From Flavobacteriales bacterium (GTDB taxonomy: Bacteria > Bacteroidota > Bacteroidia > Flavobacteriales_D > Sanyastnellaceae): a DNA stretch of 64,000 bases. The notes below the pieces were generated by a model. It saw only the letters and a program-made list of their open reading frames with translations, did not search any database and was not told where the DNA came from. The first letter of the stretch is position 1, and each line of letters opens with the position of its first letter. The stretch covers positions 124,001 through 188,000 of the forward strand of contig JAIBBG010000001.1 in assembly GCA_019694805.1 (NCBI GenBank), in the 5' to 3' direction. Shown piece by piece: positions 40,884-48,994 of this stretch. Both the position numbers and the translations under genes were made by a program.

Positions 40884-40918
40884 GAAAAGAAGCCATCAGT
40901 ATCGACAGCTTCTTTTCT
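40883..40918. terminator. Probable bidirectional terminator between convergent genes
   Basis: An 11-base stem AGAAAAGAAGC/GCTTCTTTTCT with a 14-base loop in the 47 bases between the lipoprotein gene and the convergent 778-residue protein gene. It is less GC-rich than the other terminators. Confidence 0.5.
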
Positions 40919-40930
40919 ATGATAGCTCGG

Positions 40931-43267
40931 CTATTTGATCGTAACTGACCCAAAATTCATGGTAATAGCGAAAAAATAACTTGGACTAAATTTCTCGACT
41001 ACTCCTGAATTGATATTACCGTCACCTTTATAAAATGGCTTGATATCATGTACGGAATTAAAAACAGAATTATTTTCTGCAGACCATTCATACCTGCTGA
41101 GATCATTGTTCAAAGATCTTTGTTTTCCCCAAACACAGCCTGCCGATAAGGCAATGCGATACTCGCCTCTGGCAGCAAATAAGAGTGACCCTCCCAGCAT
41201 AACCTGAACGCTCGATTCGCTAACTACTGTTCCGGTGGTCAGCGCCAAATTTGTAGCACGGCCCGAGCGTGTATAGGCATGTATGAGAAAACCGGCGTTA
41301 AACAATCCGCTATCCGTTGAACGAATTACCTGGCCTGTGCTATCAACGACATTGCCCGTGTATGTTGAAATGACGTTACCATCGGCCGCAACACTGTCTC
41401 TGGTTTCCTTAAACCGAATGTTTTGATTCACGAGTTCATACTGTGGGCGACTAAGTCCGGAGTAGATCAAACCAGAACTGAAATCTATTTTAAATCCTAA
41501 TTGTGTTCGGAAATTATTGCTGTATTCCGTCTTACCAGATTTGGTTTGCAACTCTAATCCTATTGCATCGGCATTTGGAGTTGTAAGTTGGCAAGTATAA
41601 ATGCGATATTTATTGGTTCTGCTAACTACCTTATTGTATTCAGATTTGATTTGTCCAATAATCGTTTTAAAATCCGCCATATACTTTTTTCCTAACGGGT
41701 TATATACGGCATTGCGCAAACGGGTTTCTAATTCCCCAGGGTCTGCAGACATAGCGACTCCCATTTCTTCCAATGCAAATTCGCTCAATTTTTTAATGCA
41801 TGATTCAACCTGCATTTCAGTAGTGCGATGTTGACCAATTTTGAAATTCAAATCTTGAAGATAAAATAACATAGCCGACAGATTAGCTTTTTGATCGGAT
41901 ACCAAATCCGGCAATTCACTTTCTATATAGGTGTTGATTTGGTCTTCATATTCCTTAATTTTCTTTTTGAGCTTTTCTATTTCAGCCTTATTCGAATCAA
42001 GTTGTGCTTTGATCGATTCATTGAGAATCATCAGATCATCGTACAGCGATTCCATAATGGTATCCAATCCCTTTTGTTTGCTCAAGTTGTTGATAGACCT
42101 ATCACTCAATGATAAGTCTGCAAAGTCGTTATAATACCTTAATTTCTCCTTCAATTGAGCTTGCTTATTAAAACCTTGAATAAACATATTCAGCGAATCA
42201 ATGGAATTGTCAGACAAAGGATTGGTATCTGGCTTTTCTTCCCCTCCTACTTCTGGACTACTTTGAGTATTTTCAGTAGTTTCCGTTTCTGAAACACTAA
42301 ATAAATCACTCACCTTATCTGCGTAGTCCATAAAATCTTGGGTTTCTGAGTTGACAAATTTGTATAGACTATCCGAATGACCGATCACTCGAACAACTAT
42401 ATCCCTTTCGACTGATGGGGTGAATCTTTTCAAGACCTCATAATATTCAAAAGCTCCATTTTCATCTTTGACGACCTTTAAGTAAGTAACGGGCTTCGAT
42501 GCTCCAGGCCTGCGATCTATCAAAACTTCGAACGAATGTGACATAGCATAACCAGACTTAGACTTGCTCAGATGTTCGCATGGCAAATAATACCGCTCAT
42601 TGAATTCAGATGGCAAAGGATCCTCCAAACACTTATCACGATCAACCGTGTCATTTGCCTGACCATGAACACTCAAGTCATCGTCACACCCACATGCCGA
42701 TTTGATTTTGAGAAGCGCTGTTTTGATGGCCTCTTCAGACAATGGAATGATAACCTGATTAGAAAATTCACCATCCCATTCATTTTTACTCTTAGTCGTT
42801 GACTCTTTGCTTGTTTTGAAAGCGATGATAGGTTTACCGTCTTTGAGGACAATAGCTTTTGGTTCAGATAGCATTCGATTGTTGATTCCAATCAAAAAAT
42901 TTTCCTTGAAAATCAACTTTATCATTCCGTGTTGAAGGTCACTTAAGAAAATCCTAACGGAGTTGGTATCTGCAGATTGAAATCCGACAGAAAAAGCGGC
43001 AGATTTCAACTGATTATCCTGCCCCTTAATTTTCGATTTTTCATCATTGAATAATAATGTGGTAGCGGATGGCTTTTCATCAGGAAAAATGACGATCATC
43101 GTATCCGGCAATTGATCAAGTTTGATGACACCCTTGGATACTTCAAGTTGAATGAAGACAGATTTTTTATCTAAATCAATATGTACTTGCTGAGCATAAA
43201 TCCGGCTGCCACAGATCATCAGCAGTGTGAGTAGTTGTTTGAGGCAGTTTTTTGTGTGAGGTTTCAT
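40931..43267 (-). CDS. Large exported protein, unknown function, coiled coil and barrel-like C-terminus
   Basis: A 778-residue protein I do not recognise. A signal peptide spans about 1-25 (LLTLLMICGSRIYA|QQ). The N-terminal ~330 residues are mixed alpha/beta. Residues ~400-480 are strongly helical and charged (QLDSNKAEIEKLKKKIKEYE), likely a coiled coil. The last ~200 residues alternate hydrophobic and polar (FRTQLGFKIDFSSGLIYSG, AGFLIHAY, VQVMLGGSLLFAARGEYRIA, YFFAITMNFGSV), suggesting an outer-membrane barrel and a periplasmic helical part. It is preceded by one copy of the LytTR-type element (43331-43364). Confidence 0.75.
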   Translation of the reverse strand: MKPHTKNCLKQLLTLLMICGSRIYAQQVHIDLDKKSVFIQLEVSKGVIKLDQLPDTMIVIFPDEKPSATTLLFNDEKSKIKGQDNQLKSAAFSVGFQSADTNSVRIFLSDLQHGMIKLIFKENFLIGINNRMLSEPKAIVLKDGKPIIAFKTSKESTTKSKNEWDGEFSNQVIIPLSEEAIKTALLKIKSACGCDDDLSVHGQANDTVDRDKCLEDPLPSEFNERYYLPCEHLSKSKSGYAMSHSFEVLIDRRPGASKPVTYLKVVKDENGAFEYYEVLKRFTPSVERDIVVRVIGHSDSLYKFVNSETQDFMDYADKVSDLFSVSETETTENTQSSPEVGGEEKPDTNPLSDNSIDSLNMFIQGFNKQAQLKEKLRYYNDFADLSLSDRSINNLSKQKGLDTIMESLYDDLMILNESIKAQLDSNKAEIEKLKKKIKEYEDQINTYIESELPDLVSDQKANLSAMLFYLQDLNFKIGQHRTTEMQVESCIKKLSEFALEEMGVAMSADPGELETRLRNAVYNPLGKKYMADFKTIIGQIKSEYNKVVSRTNKYRIYTCQLTTPNADAIGLELQTKSGKTEYSNNFRTQLGFKIDFSSGLIYSGLSRPQYELVNQNIRFKETRDSVAADGNVISTYTGNVVDSTGQVIRSTDSGLFNAGFLIHAYTRSGRATNLALTTGTVVSESSVQVMLGGSLLFAARGEYRIALSAGCVWGKQRSLNNDLSRYEWSAENNSVFNSVHDIKPFYKGDGNINSGVVEKFSPSYFFAITMNFGSVTIK

Positions 43268-43330
43268 TTCATTGTGTATTTATGAATAACACAGCGAAAA
43301 TCTCCAGTTCCATCACCTTGCGAAAAGCCT

Positions 43331-43364
43331 TCACAGAATTCGGCAGCCCAGAACAAGAATTTGG
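43331..43364 (-). promoter_or_regulatory. LytTR-type operator, copy 1
   Basis: On the minus strand the element has half-sites ATTCTTGTT (43360-43352) and ATTCTGTGA (43339-43331) starting 21 bases apart. Between 43333 and 43364 it is identical at 27 of 32 bases to the copy at 46953-46984. It ends 63 bases before the start of the 778-residue protein gene. A LytTR regulator is encoded nearby (47025-47774) and LytTR proteins bind direct repeats with this spacing. Confidence 0.6.
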
Positions 43365-43392
43365 CAGGTATACCTTGGATCGGTAGTTCGAT

Positions 43393-44034
43393 TCAATGAG
43401 AACTCTGGTTCCTTCTTTGTAATGCGAAGAAATAACCAGTTGCATACATGAACATGGTAATCACATTGAAAAGGCTATTGAGGTACCAAATCTCAAAAAT
43501 GATTTTGAGCTCGAGAAAAATCGTCACAAAAAAAACACAGAAATTATAAAAGAATACACCAATGGTTAGCCAAAGAACGGCATGCGAAGTATTGCTTTCA
43601 ACCCTGGTCATCCGAATTAAAGCCACAGCAGCAATGATCGAAAGCAGCATATGATAAATGGTATCAAAATAAGAACTCATGGTTCGTATTTCAAACCACG
43701 CTCCGATATTCAGCAAGTAGAAGTAAGTCCAACCTAATAGAATGGGGATTGAAACCCAATGAATTTTATTCTTATCAGGATAAACGTTATGAAGAAATAA
43801 TACCAAAAACACGGCATCCACCAAAGAATAGAAATTCTGATTGACAACGGCCACTCGATACACCCATTCTGATTTACCACTGAGAAAATAAAACATGGAC
43901 ATATTGTCGGTCATCAATCCATATAACAAAAAGAACCAGAAAAAAAGAAATACCCGTGACCTTCGAATAACAAAGCTCCCGATGATGATCGGGAGCAATG
44001 CTGAAAAGGTAGATAGTGTTTGAATGATGGTCAT
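43393..44034 (-). CDS. Seven-helix membrane protein, unknown function
   Basis: A 213-residue integral membrane protein with about seven hydrophobic helices (for example FSALLPIIIGSFVI, VFLFFWFFLLYGLM, AVFLVLFLHNV, MLLSIIAAVALIRM, FNVITMFMYATGYFFAL) and short loops; no signal peptide or soluble domain. Its form resembles the 7-helix sensory modules fused to kinases in Bacteroidota, but it stands alone. It overlaps the lipoprotein gene upstream by four bases and is the last gene of the methyltransferase-led operon. Confidence 0.75.
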   Translation of the reverse strand: MTIIQTLSTFSALLPIIIGSFVIRRSRVFLFFWFFLLYGLMTDNMSMFYFLSGKSEWVYRVAVVNQNFYSLVDAVFLVLFLHNVYPDKNKIHWVSIPILLGWTYFYLLNIGAWFEIRTMSSYFDTIYHMLLSIIAAVALIRMTRVESNTSHAVLWLTIGVFFYNFCVFFVTIFLELKIIFEIWYLNSLFNVITMFMYATGYFFALQRRNQSSH

Positions 44035-44927
44035 TCTTTTTTAGAACTTCTAGATGGATCAATGGGGGGCCAGGACTTCTCAATGCACTTTGAGGTCAAT
44101 CCACCAGGCGTATTATGTAGCAACAAATTCCCCAAATCATCAACACCTATCAAGATCATCCTAACTTTTTCTTCATTATTACCAGAGGCGAAACCAAGAA
44201 AAACACAAAATCCACTGAATGTTCTACCTTGAGGCAAATTTTGATAAACGAAATTGTCGAATTCTGTTTGTCGTATAAAACCAAAGCCATAGTTGGCATA
44301 ATTCTCATTTGATGCAAATTTCATCTTATAGTTAAAATTTGAAACAAGTACATCCTTTGGATCAATGAAATCGTTACTTATTGATAAAGGATTCTTAACT
44401 GTAAATTCCTCAGTCAAATATGCAAGAACGGAGGCCGCATTGGGAGATGTTAAGTCCATCATCGAATACCAGACTGAAGATTCAACAAATGAATCTGTAA
44501 CTGAGATCAGAACATTAGGATCCGATTTACCAGGGCAAATAGCTTCGCGTTTCATTGAGATGAAAAATTGATCCTTCAAAAGCCATCTGTCCCATACACA
44601 AGGAAAAAACAAGAATCCTTGATAAGGTGGAACTTGTTTCATTTTAGTATCTTCAAAACGAATAAAACCGGCGAATCCATATTGGCCACCAAAGTTTGAA
44701 CAATTCGGGTCATTCAGGAATTCTGATATATAGCCAGCAGCCTGTAAAGGACCGATAATATTTGAGCTTGTCAATTCATCACAATCATTTCGCTTATCCC
44801 AATTCTCACGTTTCAGTTTCAGTGAATCTGCGGAATTAATACTTTGCGAATTACACAAGTTTGAACAACTTATCGCTATAAAGGCTAAACAAATAGCGAG
44901 TGCATTTTTTCTAAATTTCTTTTTCAT
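44031..44927 (-). CDS. Lipoprotein of unknown function
   Basis: A 298-residue exported protein. ICLAFIAISC ends in a lipobox Cys at 21, so it should be lipidated. The mature part has seven or more Cys (CDE, PNCSN, FPCVW, ICPG, SGFC, SKCIEK), an unusual number that suggests disulfides. No family recognised. It follows the desaturase gene by 12 bases and overlaps the 7-helix protein gene by four. Confidence 0.75.
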   Translation of the reverse strand: MKKKFRKNALAICLAFIAISCSNLCNSQSINSADSLKLKRENWDKRNDCDELTSSNIIGPLQAAGYISEFLNDPNCSNFGGQYGFAGFIRFEDTKMKQVPPYQGFLFFPCVWDRWLLKDQFFISMKREAICPGKSDPNVLISVTDSFVESSVWYSMMDLTSPNAASVLAYLTEEFTVKNPLSISNDFIDPKDVLVSNFNYKMKFASNENYANYGFGFIRQTEFDNFVYQNLPQGRTFSGFCVFLGFASGNNEEKVRMILIGVDDLGNLLLHNTPGGLTSKCIEKSWPPIDPSRSSKKE

Positions 44928-44939
44928 ATCAATAGTATT

Positions 44940-45977
44940 TTACGTTAAAGGATCCTCCTCAAATATTTCATGGCTATATGCCTCGTTAACTGCACGCAAG
45001 AAGGGAATACGCTGGTAACGATCAGGAAAATGCTCCTGAAGTCTTTTGCTGATTTCTGGGTAATAATCAAAATTAATTCCCGGAAACACATGATGTTCTA
45101 CATGGTATGAATGCCAATCAATGAGCTTATCCAAAAAAACTGGTACAATCACAGAGGTTGAAGTTAATAATGGATCGGCAGTATCTCGATAATTTGGATT
45201 GCGCAGATGCTGGGTGATAATAAAAATGATTAAGCCAGCACTATATACAAACCATGAAACCAGAGATACAATAAGATAAAGCTTCCAACCGATGACACCT
45301 ATGATCAACCCTTGGATTCCAAGTACAAATAAGAATTCAAGAAGTACCCTACGCTTTTCCGCTTTTGAATAGCTTGGTCGAAAAGTGACAATTGCAAGTT
45401 TACTTCCTTCAGGGAAAAACACAGAAACAAGATGCTTGCTGGTATAAAAGATCATAGCGAATCCAACTGTAAATGAAAACCTGAGGGATTTGTTGGGGTA
45501 AATAAACATATTATAGATGGTATTCCAAAAGTTTTTCTCGGATTTGAATGTTCGCCGATCAGGATCATCATAACTGTTCATGCTTTTGTGATGATTCAGA
45601 TTATGTATCTTCTCCCACATAGTTGGTGGCATACCACTAAAAGACCAAAAAAACACTTCAGCCATGTATCTATAAGGTTGCTTTCTGATAATGGTTCCAT
45701 GGGTCAGTTCATGGCAATACAAGAATAAACATGCGTATGAAAAACCAATGAGTATTGATAATCCAACAATAACCCACCATTCCGGAAATATGCGAATGAG
45801 GAATAACCATAAAAACACCAATATCACATGTGTAGTCATTGGAATGAGTTTATAATTAGCCGGTTTATAGGCCTGTCTTGGAATATATTTCTTCAGCCTT
45901 GAAGTATAGTATCCTATGCTTTGTGGAGTAGAATCAAGCATCTCTGATGTCAAAGTGGATGAGAAATTCTTGGTCAT
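44940..45977 (-). CDS. Membrane fatty acid desaturase-family protein
   Basis: A 345-residue integral membrane di-iron protein. The three His boxes are H89-ELT-H93 (CHELTHG), HNLNHH (125-130) and HSYHVEHHVFPG (289-300), with hydrophobic helices near 50-90 and 205-255. The family introduces double bonds, hydroxyls or ketones into acyl chains or carotenoids. It overlaps the methyltransferase gene upstream by four bases, so the two products may act in sequence on one lipid; that is inference from layout. Confidence 0.88.
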   Translation of the reverse strand: MTKNFSSTLTSEMLDSTPQSIGYYTSRLKKYIPRQAYKPANYKLIPMTTHVILVFLWLFLIRIFPEWWVIVGLSILIGFSYACLFLYCHELTHGTIIRKQPYRYMAEVFFWSFSGMPPTMWEKIHNLNHHKSMNSYDDPDRRTFKSEKNFWNTIYNMFIYPNKSLRFSFTVGFAMIFYTSKHLVSVFFPEGSKLAIVTFRPSYSKAEKRRVLLEFLFVLGIQGLIIGVIGWKLYLIVSLVSWFVYSAGLIIFIITQHLRNPNYRDTADPLLTSTSVIVPVFLDKLIDWHSYHVEHHVFPGINFDYYPEISKRLQEHFPDRYQRIPFLRAVNEAYSHEIFEEDPLT

Positions 45978-46876
45978 TGTTGTATGTTGAGGAATAGATT
46001 TACTTCAGTTGGTTCATGCATAATACGTATGTGTTCTTTGTTGTATCCCGCATCTTTTGCCAACAGTCTCAACTTACCTGCACTGCGATAGTTGAGATAC
46101 CACTCCCCTATCAATTCCATATACCCGCCGGTTGGATTGAGATCGGAAAAATTTCCAATGATGATGTGCTTCTGGTTTCTAAACCTGGCCAGTATTTTAG
46201 TGAAGGTGTTATCATCAAAATAGTCAAACAATCCAGCAGACCAAACAAGATCATATTGTTCCTGCGGCAAAAACCGAAAAATATTCTGCTGAATAAATGT
46301 TACTTGTGAATTGTATGTTCCCAACAACTCCTTGGCGAAGGCAATGGCATGAGGATCTAATTCAACACATGTAAAATGAAATCTGAAATCCTTTGTTTCA
46401 TCAAAAAACTCTAATAAATCACGACAGGGACCACTTGCAAGATTCAGTACTTCTATACGGTCTGCTGTACTCCTTGATCCAAGATCTGTGAGCCATTGTT
46501 TGAAAAATGTTTTCCGATTACGAACCGCTTGAGGTGCCAACTGAGCATGAAAATAGCGGTCCCACGTTTTCATTTCAGGGTGATCGCTATGCCAGTTGGT
46601 ATATATCTTATCTATGATCTCATAATCTCCTGCATATCCATGCTTTTTCACATAGGCTAGTCCTTGCATCGTAGCATCTGAACCAATGGCGGGAAACAAC
46701 ATACGCATTTCAGAAAGTTCAGCTTTCACCTCTTCTTTCGATTGATGATCATGCAATTTTGAAATGATCTCGCTAAACTTTTGAAAATGCGGTTCTTGTA
46801 TTGAACCATTCATCAGAAGTGATTTCAGGTCCTTTAGCAATTTGCTGACCATGGTGTTGTTCAATTCTTGTGTCAT
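45974..46876 (-). CDS. SAM-dependent methyltransferase, head of LytTR-linked operon
   Basis: A 300-residue class I methyltransferase. The N-terminal ~90 residues are helical. Motif I is VLNLASGPCRDLLEFF, post-I CVELDPHAIAFAK, then VTFIQQNIFRFLPQEQYDLVWSAGLFDY-type motifs II-III. GYMELIGEWYLNYRS near the end resembles methyltransferases acting on lipids or small metabolites. I chose ATG 46876; a longer frame back to 46993 would run through the conserved operator at 46951-46984 and has no family look. It is 148 bases downstream of the LytTR gene. Confidence 0.82.
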   Translation of the reverse strand: MTQELNNTMVSKLLKDLKSLLMNGSIQEPHFQKFSEIISKLHDHQSKEEVKAELSEMRMLFPAIGSDATMQGLAYVKKHGYAGDYEIIDKIYTNWHSDHPEMKTWDRYFHAQLAPQAVRNRKTFFKQWLTDLGSRSTADRIEVLNLASGPCRDLLEFFDETKDFRFHFTCVELDPHAIAFAKELLGTYNSQVTFIQQNIFRFLPQEQYDLVWSAGLFDYFDDNTFTKILARFRNQKHIIIGNFSDLNPTGGYMELIGEWYLNYRSAGKLRLLAKDAGYNKEHIRIMHEPTEVNLFLNIQQ

Positions 46877-46950
46877 CGTTTTTGTTTTGTGGCACAAAGA
46901 ATCACCAGGCTTTTCAGCTTCAATAGTAAGAATCAGAATATGGCGGAAGG

Positions 46951-46984
46951 AAACAGTATCCGGCAGACCCGAACAAGAATCTGG
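46951..46984 (-). promoter_or_regulatory. LytTR-type operator, copy 2
   Basis: On the minus strand ATTCTTGTT (46980-46972) and ATACTGTTT (46959-46951), starts 21 bases apart. It lies 74 bases before the methyltransferase ATG and directly after the LytTR regulator gene. A TTCTTTG sequence nearer the ATG may be the -7 region. Confidence 0.6.
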
Positions 46985-47024
46985 TGAAGTCAATAAGACT
47001 CACATTTCACCCACAAAAACCCAT

Positions 47025-47774
47025 TCAGAGTCTTCTCAATGCTTCAAGAAACTCGTCCTTCTTGCGGCGTGAAACTTCGACATGTGAGCCGTCATCCATT
47101 TCAATTGTCCCTCCTTCACCACGAACAAATTTCTTCACTTGACTCAGATTGATCATGTGTGATTGATGAACACGTATGAACCCAGAATCTGATAACATTT
47201 CCTCACATTCCTTCATGGTTCTGGAGACAACAATCTGGTTCTTGTCTTTCATGAAAAATGTGGTATAAGTATTATGCGACTCCAGTCTAACCACATCATT
47301 CAATTTCACGAATATGTAACCATTGGAAGTCGGCAATGCTAATTTGCTTTCCGACTTATCGCGCAAATTACTTAGAAGTACTTCAATGTTTGGTTGTCGT
47401 TCAGATAGTTGTTTATGTAGAAACTTGTTCACGGCCTCCTGCAATTCACTTTCGGGATAAGGTTTTAGTAAGAAATCTACCGCAGCAACGCGGAACGCTC
47501 TTGTTGCATATCCGGCATGTGATGTTGTAAAAATGACATCGAAATGAATTTTACTCAGAGAATCCAAAAATTCGAATCCATTCATTCCAGGCATTTCTAC
47601 GTCCAAAAAGACCAACCGCGGAGATGTTCTCGCCACAGCGAGCGTGGCCTCTTCCGCAGAAGAACATTTGCCGGTAATATTGAGTTGCGGAAATAAGTTT
47701 TGCAAGCGTGTTTCCAATTGTTCACGTTGCGCGGGTTCATCATCAACAATCAGAACATCGATCTTATCTTCCAT
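47025..47774 (-). CDS. LytTR-family DNA-binding response regulator
   Basis: A 249-residue LytR/AlgR-type regulator. The receiver domain (1-120) has the acidic pair in VLIVDDEPA, phospho-acceptor D58 in LVFLDVEMPGMNG, and a switch Lys in LLKPYPE. Residues ~145-249 form the LytTR domain (YIFVKLNDVVRLESHNTYT, SGFIRVHQSHMINL and VKKFVRGEGGTIEM), which binds direct repeats about 21 bases apart. It overlaps the kinase gene by one base and is the likely ligand of the two elements at 43331 and 46951. Confidence 0.93.
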   Translation of the reverse strand: MEDKIDVLIVDDEPAQREQLETRLQNLFPQLNITGKCSSAEEATLAVARTSPRLVFLDVEMPGMNGFEFLDSLSKIHFDVIFTTSHAGYATRAFRVAAVDFLLKPYPESELQEAVNKFLHKQLSERQPNIEVLLSNLRDKSESKLALPTSNGYIFVKLNDVVRLESHNTYTTFFMKDKNQIVVSRTMKECEEMLSDSGFIRVHQSHMINLSQVKKFVRGEGGTIEMDDGSHVEVSRRKKDEFLEALRRL

Positions 47775-48562
47775 CAGAATTGGGGTATATAGGGTAATGT
47801 AATTTCAGTGATCATTCCACTGTGCTCATGAGAAGAATTGGTCAATATCCGAGATTCAAACCGCGTTTCCCGGCCTTCAAGTTCCGCCAGTGCATCAAGC
47901 TGCTGACTGATAAGACTCCTTCCCAATGATTTTTCCTTACCTGGCAATTGCAACCTTTCAAATCGTTCTGCAATTACACCATTGTCAGTTACTCGCATGA
48001 GCAGTTGATCCTCTTTACTTTCAATGACTATGGTTATTTTTCCATCTTGTTTTCTACTTTCAAAACCATGCCATACCGCATTTTCTACCAACGGCTGAAG
48101 CAGAAGCATGGGCACCGCAATGTTTGAAGTCTCCATGTTTTCTTCTAGGTGTATTTCATAGGTAAATCGATCTCCCGAACGCAAGCGTTCAAGCTCAAGA
48201 TATGCTTTCAAAATATCCAGATCTTCTTCCAATGTTATCAGTTTCTTTCCGGAGTTTTCCAATATTCGTCTGGTAAGAAAAGAAAATTTAAGAAGATAGT
48301 CACTTGCCTTTTCCGTCTGGTGCTGTTGGATACAATAATGTATTGAATTCAAACAATTGAAGATAAAATGAGGATGGATTTGTGCACGGATTGCTTGCAA
48401 TTCCAGTTCAAGTTGTTTACGACGTAATGTGCTCTCCCTATTTCGACGATAAATGATGAAAACAATGAAAGAAAAAGCAACCAAAAATGGGAGCAAAACA
48501 AGTAAAGAGACTTTGTTTATCAATTCTCCCGTTTGAGCTATTTCCGACTGAAGCAGCAACAT
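47774..48562 (-). CDS. LytS-like sensor histidine kinase
   Basis: A 262-residue kinase of the His_kinase/LytS group, small for the family. One membrane helix (LLVLLPFLVAFSFIVFIIY, about 20-38) is followed by a short basic linker, the phosphorylation helix QIHPHFIFNCLNSIHY (phospho-acceptor H65) and an ATPase domain (VPMLLLQPLVENAVWHGF, VTDNG). There is almost no extracellular part, so the signal is sensed in the membrane or passed by a partner; the 7-helix protein or lipoprotein of the same locus are candidates. It is coupled to the LytTR gene. Confidence 0.9.
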   Translation of the reverse strand: MLLLQSEIAQTGELINKVSLLVLLPFLVAFSFIVFIIYRRNRESTLRRKQLELELQAIRAQIHPHFIFNCLNSIHYCIQQHQTEKASDYLLKFSFLTRRILENSGKKLITLEEDLDILKAYLELERLRSGDRFTYEIHLEENMETSNIAVPMLLLQPLVENAVWHGFESRKQDGKITIVIESKEDQLLMRVTDNGVIAERFERLQLPGKEKSLGRSLISQQLDALAELEGRETRFESRILTNSSHEHSGMITEITLPYIPQF

Positions 48563-48664
48563 GGCCCGAAATATACGTGACCATTCTCTAACACTTCATC
48601 AGAGATGAAGTAATATCTTAGTGATAAGAGAGGAAATTGCGTTTCAAATGCCTAATCTTGCATC

Positions 48665-48994
48665 ATGAAATCAGAACAGATCAGGATCGATATCGAACTG
48701 GACGATAATCATGTTCCGGAAAAAATCATTTGGACCGCATCTCAAAATCAAAAAAGCGCTGAAGCTAAGGCAATGATTTTGGGAGTTTGGGATAAAGAAG
48801 AACAAAACGCCATGCGTATTGATCTTTGGAACAAAGAGATGCAGGTTGATGAAATGAAACAGTTTGTGCACCAGACTTTACTTACGCTGGCAGATAGTTT
48901 CGAACGTGCTACGAATGAAAAACCCATGGCTGATACCATGCGTGATTTCTGCGATTACTTCGCAGAAAAAATGAATATCAAAGCTCCGCTATAA
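48665..48994 (+). CDS. gldC: Gliding motility protein GldC
   Basis: A 109-residue protein matching GldC throughout: IDIELDDNHVPEKIIWTA, ILGVWDKEEQNAMRIDLWN, MQVDEMKQFVHQTL and ADTMRDFCDYFAEKMN. GldC is a small cytoplasmic or peripheral protein needed for efficient gliding; its role is unknown. It is single here, divergent from the LytS gene and ~8.8 kb from gldB, which is unusual. A TAATCTTG sequence just before the ATG is a weak -7 match. Confidence 0.9.
   Translation: MKSEQIRIDIELDDNHVPEKIIWTASQNQKSAEAKAMILGVWDKEEQNAMRIDLWNKEMQVDEMKQFVHQTLLTLADSFERATNEKPMADTMRDFCDYFAEKMNIKAPL

Follow-up and report, generated by a model that had tools for sequence, protein, structure and literature searches.

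LytTR sites consist of two direct (or inverted) repeats, each 9-11 nt long, with spacers of 11-13 nt between them and no common consensus (PMC4847170). In E. coli, the LytS/LytTR pair BtsS/BtsR (YehU/YehT) has its target in yjiY/btsT, upstream of which tandem ACC-core repeats (ACC[G/A]CT[C/T]A) are found with 21-nt spacing (PMC4847170, PMC5552118); the YehT/BtsR yjiY probe contains ACCGCTTA-N13-ACCACTCA (PMC4847170). In YpdA/YpdB of the same species, the LytTR regulator likewise acts at a pair of direct repeats (GGCATTTCAT) that precede a single target (PMC4847170). The sites in Streptococcus read ACC[A/G]CTTAT-12bp, i.e. are ACCACTTAT-12bp-like, and those predicted in Bacteroides are TCCGGTATTCA-11bp-ACCGGAAATCA and TCCGGCATTCA-11bp-ACCGTAAATCA (PMC6193735). 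LRS-like LytTR operons of B. thetaiotaomicron and B. ovatus carry 11-nt direct repeats approximately 22 nt apart start-to-start, which are thought to be autoregulatory, and the LytTR protein there has transmembrane segments before the DNA-binding domain (PMC6193735, Table 3).

Here we analysed a 64,000-nt window (the whole stretch of DNA studied) from a Flavobacteriales bacterium, in which two copies of a direct-repeat element are very probably binding sites of the LytTR regulator encoded at 47025-47774 and would control two promoters within a single local cluster. The gene content of the genome, e.g. GldC, is of Bacteroidota type. The original prediction held that LytTR regulators bind direct repeats spaced in this way. 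Both the 21-nt spacing and the RCC(R) core agree with the LytTR sites studied by experiment in E. coli (YehT/BtsR) and Streptococcus and with the predicted Bacteroides sites. With 21 nt start-to-start, both copies and a counterpart in the related genome G014 have the LytTR-site architecture of 9-11-nt repeats and 11-13-nt spacers, about two helical turns. When compared by eye with the predicted Bacteroides sites, the half-site core RCCRNATWCTK resembles TCCGGTATTCA and TCCGGCATTCA; moreover, the LRS-like repeats TCCGGTATTCA/ACCGGAAATCA are close to GCCGAATTCTG/ACCAGATTCTT of the window, and both lie upstream of membrane-protein operons. The window units fit the known LytTR series best at its Bacteroides end. 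Unlike the LRS-like proteins, however, the regulator here is a soluble two-component regulator, and its repeats come after the LytTR gene. The locus shares with BtsS/BtsR the LytS/LytTR pair and the tandem repeats, but the half-sites differ, the kinase here is short in contrast to the 7TM pyruvate receptor BtsS, and the targets here are not a pyruvate transporter. The closest NCBIfam equivalog model of the regulator is BtsR, at 121 bits and so far under the cut-off of 246, which places the pair outside the BtsS/BtsR equivalogs. YpdA/YpdB differs in both half-site and target.

Anatomy and rarity of the paired element

In the region 40900-48700, the largest family of direct repeats detected by the repeat finder was the pair that had been proposed originally, 43333-43364 and 46953-46984, identical at 27/32 positions (84%) and in the same orientation. 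The proposed 34-base element is real, but its full length is 36 nt (minus strand, 43331-43366 for copy 1 and 46951-46986 for copy 2), with a probable additional half-site in copy 2. In the direction of the genes, copy 1 reads TGCCAAATTCTTGTT-CTGGGC-TGCCGAATTCTGTGA and copy 2 reads CACCAGATTCTTGTT-CGGGTC-TGCCGGATACTGTTT, followed at 20 nt by CGCCATATTCTGATT (Table 1). Two ATTCTTGTT-like half-sites 21 bases apart had been described in each copy; the spacing was correct and the register was not, as the unit spans 15 nt instead of 9 and starts approximately 5 nt before ATTCTTGTT. In each copy the second unit begins exactly 21 nt after the first. In pair scoring across the window the two named sites reached 39.0 and 37.6 and an overlapping third pair 32.7, with the next best at 17.1. 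The CGCCATATTCTGATT sequence is probably a third half-site of copy 2; it has no counterpart in copy 1 or in G014. Both sites are situated upstream of co-directional genes, at the predicted 63 and 74 nt from the ATGs at 43267 and 46876.

Table 1. Half-sites of the two element copies and genes of the local cluster (window positions).
Feature	Positions	Strand	Remarks
Copy 1, half-site 1	43352..43366	-	TGCCAAATTCTTGTT; direct repeat of copy 1 half-site 2 at 21 nt
Copy 1, half-site 2	43331..43345	-	TGCCGAATTCTGTGA; 63 nt from its end to the ATG of the 778-residue gene
Copy 2, half-site 1	46972..46986	-	CACCAGATTCTTGTT; starts 38 nt past LytTR stop codon
Copy 2, half-site 2	46951..46965	-	TGCCGGATACTGTTT; ends 74 nt before methyltransferase ATG
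Copy 2, probable third half-site	46931..46945	-	CGCCATATTCTGATT; 20 nt after second half-site
Response regulator, receiver and LytTR DNA-binding domain, proposed binder	47025..47774	-	PF00072 6e-21, PF04397 6.5e-19; 51% orthologue in G014
LytS-type histidine kinase (His_kinase PF06580)	47774..48562	-	43% orthologue in G014
Class I SAM-dependent methyltransferase, leads operon behind copy 2	45974..46876	-	41-44% orthologue in G014
Membrane fatty-acid desaturase, overlapping methyltransferase stop	44940..45977	-	PF00487 4e-31; 55% identical in G014
Protein of unknown function, secreted (signal peptide), probably a lipoprotein	44031..44927	-	21% identical G014 counterpart, common SWPP end
Multi-span membrane protein, possible kinase signal partner	43393..44034	-	35% identical G014 counterpart
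778-residue exported protein, coiled-coil middle, behind copy 1; nearly orphan	40931..43267	-	C-terminal matches only, in 3 other genomes

As there are two copies only, their similarity might have arisen by chance or from a small duplication in the recent past. Against this, approximately 0.011 same-strand 32-mer pairs this alike are expected per 64 kb at the base composition of the window, and approximately 0.0002 when both have to fall within 150 nt upstream of genes. Similarity between the copies drops abruptly to background just beyond the half-site units, which disfavours a recent duplication. With the internal 21-nt periodicity and the G014 counterpart also speaking against it, such an origin is scarcely credible.

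Across the genome (3.85 Mb, 106 contigs), the pattern originally put forward has exactly two exact matches; the remainder carry 2-3 mismatches, and the total of 54 does not greatly exceed the 35 of the reversed control. The element is not common genome-wide. The refined pattern, CCRNATWCTK-N11-CCRNATWCTK, also gave two exact matches, both in this cluster, and otherwise just two-mismatch noise (11 matches vs. 9 in the reversed control). Because the exact matches are these two sites of one cluster, a genome-wide regulon defined by this motif is ruled out. The originally suggested regulon holds up as a set of predicted LytTR sites, by the G014 site and the 21-nt enrichment described below, but amounts to two promoters of a single cluster. 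Among 99 relatives, the window-derived consensus was absent with up to three mismatches allowed. Matches to the refined pattern in G041 (L172) and G049 (L171) were discarded as lying inside coding genes. A one-mismatch site in G012 (L186:1498-1533) is located just upstream of a secreted-protein gene; it has no known LytTR neighbour and was set aside as well.

The G014 counterpart and 21-nt repeats at other LytTR loci

The only other genome found to have an orthologous cluster, G014 of the same family, has an orthologous site. The cluster there encodes LytS, LytTR, the lipoprotein, the membrane protein, the methyltransferase and the desaturase (identities in Table 1), together with a FabH-like ketosynthase. 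With a matrix derived solely from the four half-sites of the window, the best pair in the 18-kb G014 locus was TGCCGTATTCTTCCT-GAAATC-CACCACATACTTTGC (L042:5506-5541, 19.3 bits). It lies at the orthologous position, with the 21-nt spacing and the orientation seen in the window, and starts 8 nt past the LytTR stop codon (38 nt in the window). This score was reached by 0/5000 shuffles of that intergenic gap, by 2% of whole-locus shuffles and at 5 of 2.6 million background positions. The next gene probably starts approximately 465 nt away from the site, vs. 60-75 nt in the window, so the promoter arrangement in G014 may differ. Since one orthologous cluster was found, the footprint is a single comparison. 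Closer orthologues were found in none of the genomes covered (114 of the family, 399 of the order and 395 of the class), and in a regulator search of genome contigs full-length identity did not exceed 43%.

Two other candidates were rejected as orthologous clusters. In the distant relative G680 (L209:7683-11185), the same methyltransferase lies beside proteins that read as globin-like and adjoins a diverged LytS/LytTR pair (24%) with no matching site, constituting a second enzyme-LytTR association. G032 has the methyltransferase and lacks the LytS/LytTR pair. A related methyltransferase at L045:7275-8774 follows, in one fused protein, a domain reading like a cyclic-nucleotide-binding domain; this fusion is presumably similar to the family that carries the annotation 3-hydroxypalmitate methyl ester synthase.

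Direct repeats (at least 11/14 matching) in intergenic regions of other Bacteroidota LytTR loci were counted by offset without any matrix, with the window and G014 clusters excluded. At offset 21 the count was 16/36 near LytTR genes vs. 8/144 farther off in the same loci (Fisher p = 6.8e-8, de-duplicated by sequence only, with related genomes not fully independent). The enrichment near LytTR genes is large and specific to 21 nt. Several of these repeats are within 20 nt of a LytTR stop codon, e.g. the CCGAATACTCG and GACCAATTACTCA repeats. Further 21-nt repeats, of the TTCRCTCATTA or TTCCCTAAT type, occur at L103:7820, L103:4563, L100:2899, L085:7880 and L093:7836. Three of them (L103:7820, L085:7880 and L093:7836) precede the LytTR gene itself; autoregulation and subgroup-specific half-sites are suggested.

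The LytTR regulator as candidate binder

As originally noted, a LytS/LytTR pair adjoins copy 2, namely a regulator with Response_reg and LytTR domains and its LytS-like His_kinase partner. The genome contains at least six further strong LytTR relatives (at least seven in all), and the general RCC core is common to LytTR half-sites across phyla; the sites might then be bound by another LytTR regulator of the genome, or by several. We consider this improbable, as both sites are confined to this cluster, copy 2 comes immediately after this LytTR gene and the G014 site likewise comes after the orthologous one. It is very improbable that the sites belong to a non-LytTR factor, or to a leader-RNA or terminator element, and that the spacing is coincidental. 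Sequence alone leaves room for such a binder; no tool result favours a non-LytTR reading. An RNA element is disfavoured by the absence of an Rfam match and by folding no better than that of shuffles (z of 0.32 and -0.94), and the tandem orientation and the specific enrichment of 21-nt repeats near LytTR genes speak against another kind of factor. The preferred reading, LytTR sites served by the adjacent regulator, draws on the sites, their spacing, rarity and conserved placement and the domains of the regulator; from these we infer binding by this particular protein.

Predicted circuit and its meaning

In the proposed mechanism, the LytS-type kinase would phosphorylate the regulator, which would then bind the direct-repeat half-sites on one face of the DNA, two helical turns apart. 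At copy 2 it would switch the promoter of the methyltransferase-desaturase-lipoprotein-membrane-protein operon and at copy 1 that of the 778-residue envelope-protein gene, perhaps by activation rather than repression. Downstream of both sites, Bacteroidota promoter-like boxes did not outscore random 100-mers; with no promoter rising above background, control is deduced from the position of the sites. A single hydrophobic segment was seen at the N-terminus of the kinase, and no separate sensor domain was recognised in it, which makes the multi-span membrane protein and the lipoprotein encoded alongside it, and retained in G014, candidate sensing partners on which it may rely.

The structural model of the methyltransferase (pLDDT 75, built from four sequences only) has the class I SAM-dependent fold, with matches led by small-molecule O- and C-methyltransferases. 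For the desaturase, the nearest NCBIfam model is DesB, with a score under its cut-off. Taken together, the methyltransferase fold and the desaturase point to modification of a lipid or acyl compound, and an acyl product is supported by the FabH-like ketosynthase of the G014 cluster (L042:7484-8605), a gene absent from the window. Membrane or lipid adaptation may be the output. The 778-residue protein received no Pfam or NCBIfam assignment; its relatives cover the C-terminal part only (about 520-745), and in the three other genomes where they were found none stands beside a LytTR gene.

In Bacillus subtilis, the two-component system DesK/DesR controls a desaturase, DesR being a NarL-type regulator. 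The pair described here is also positioned to control a membrane desaturase, but through a LytTR regulator and along with a methyltransferase and envelope proteins. The locus is family-typical, a normal local two-component circuit and not a new kind of system. Conceivably, though we regard it as unlikely, it could be a self-contained LytS/LytTR cassette whose short kinase, using the multi-span membrane protein and lipoprotein as sensor, controls enzymes for making or modifying an acyl compound, namely the methyltransferase and desaturase (in G014 also the FabH-like ketosynthase); such a cassette might serve lipid adaptation or acyl-ester signalling, with feedback via copies 1 and 2.

LytTR regulators are numerous in Bacteroidota genomes, and almost no binding sites of Bacteroidota ones are described in the literature searched. 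The site pair, the G014 site and the 21-nt enrichment would provide a usable half-site (RCCRNATWCTK, 21-nt spacing) for the subgroup of this regulator, and 21-nt repeats near LytTR genes offer a simple route to predicting the targets of other regulators. The predicted sites would link one Bacteroidota LytTR regulator to a lipid-modifying operon.
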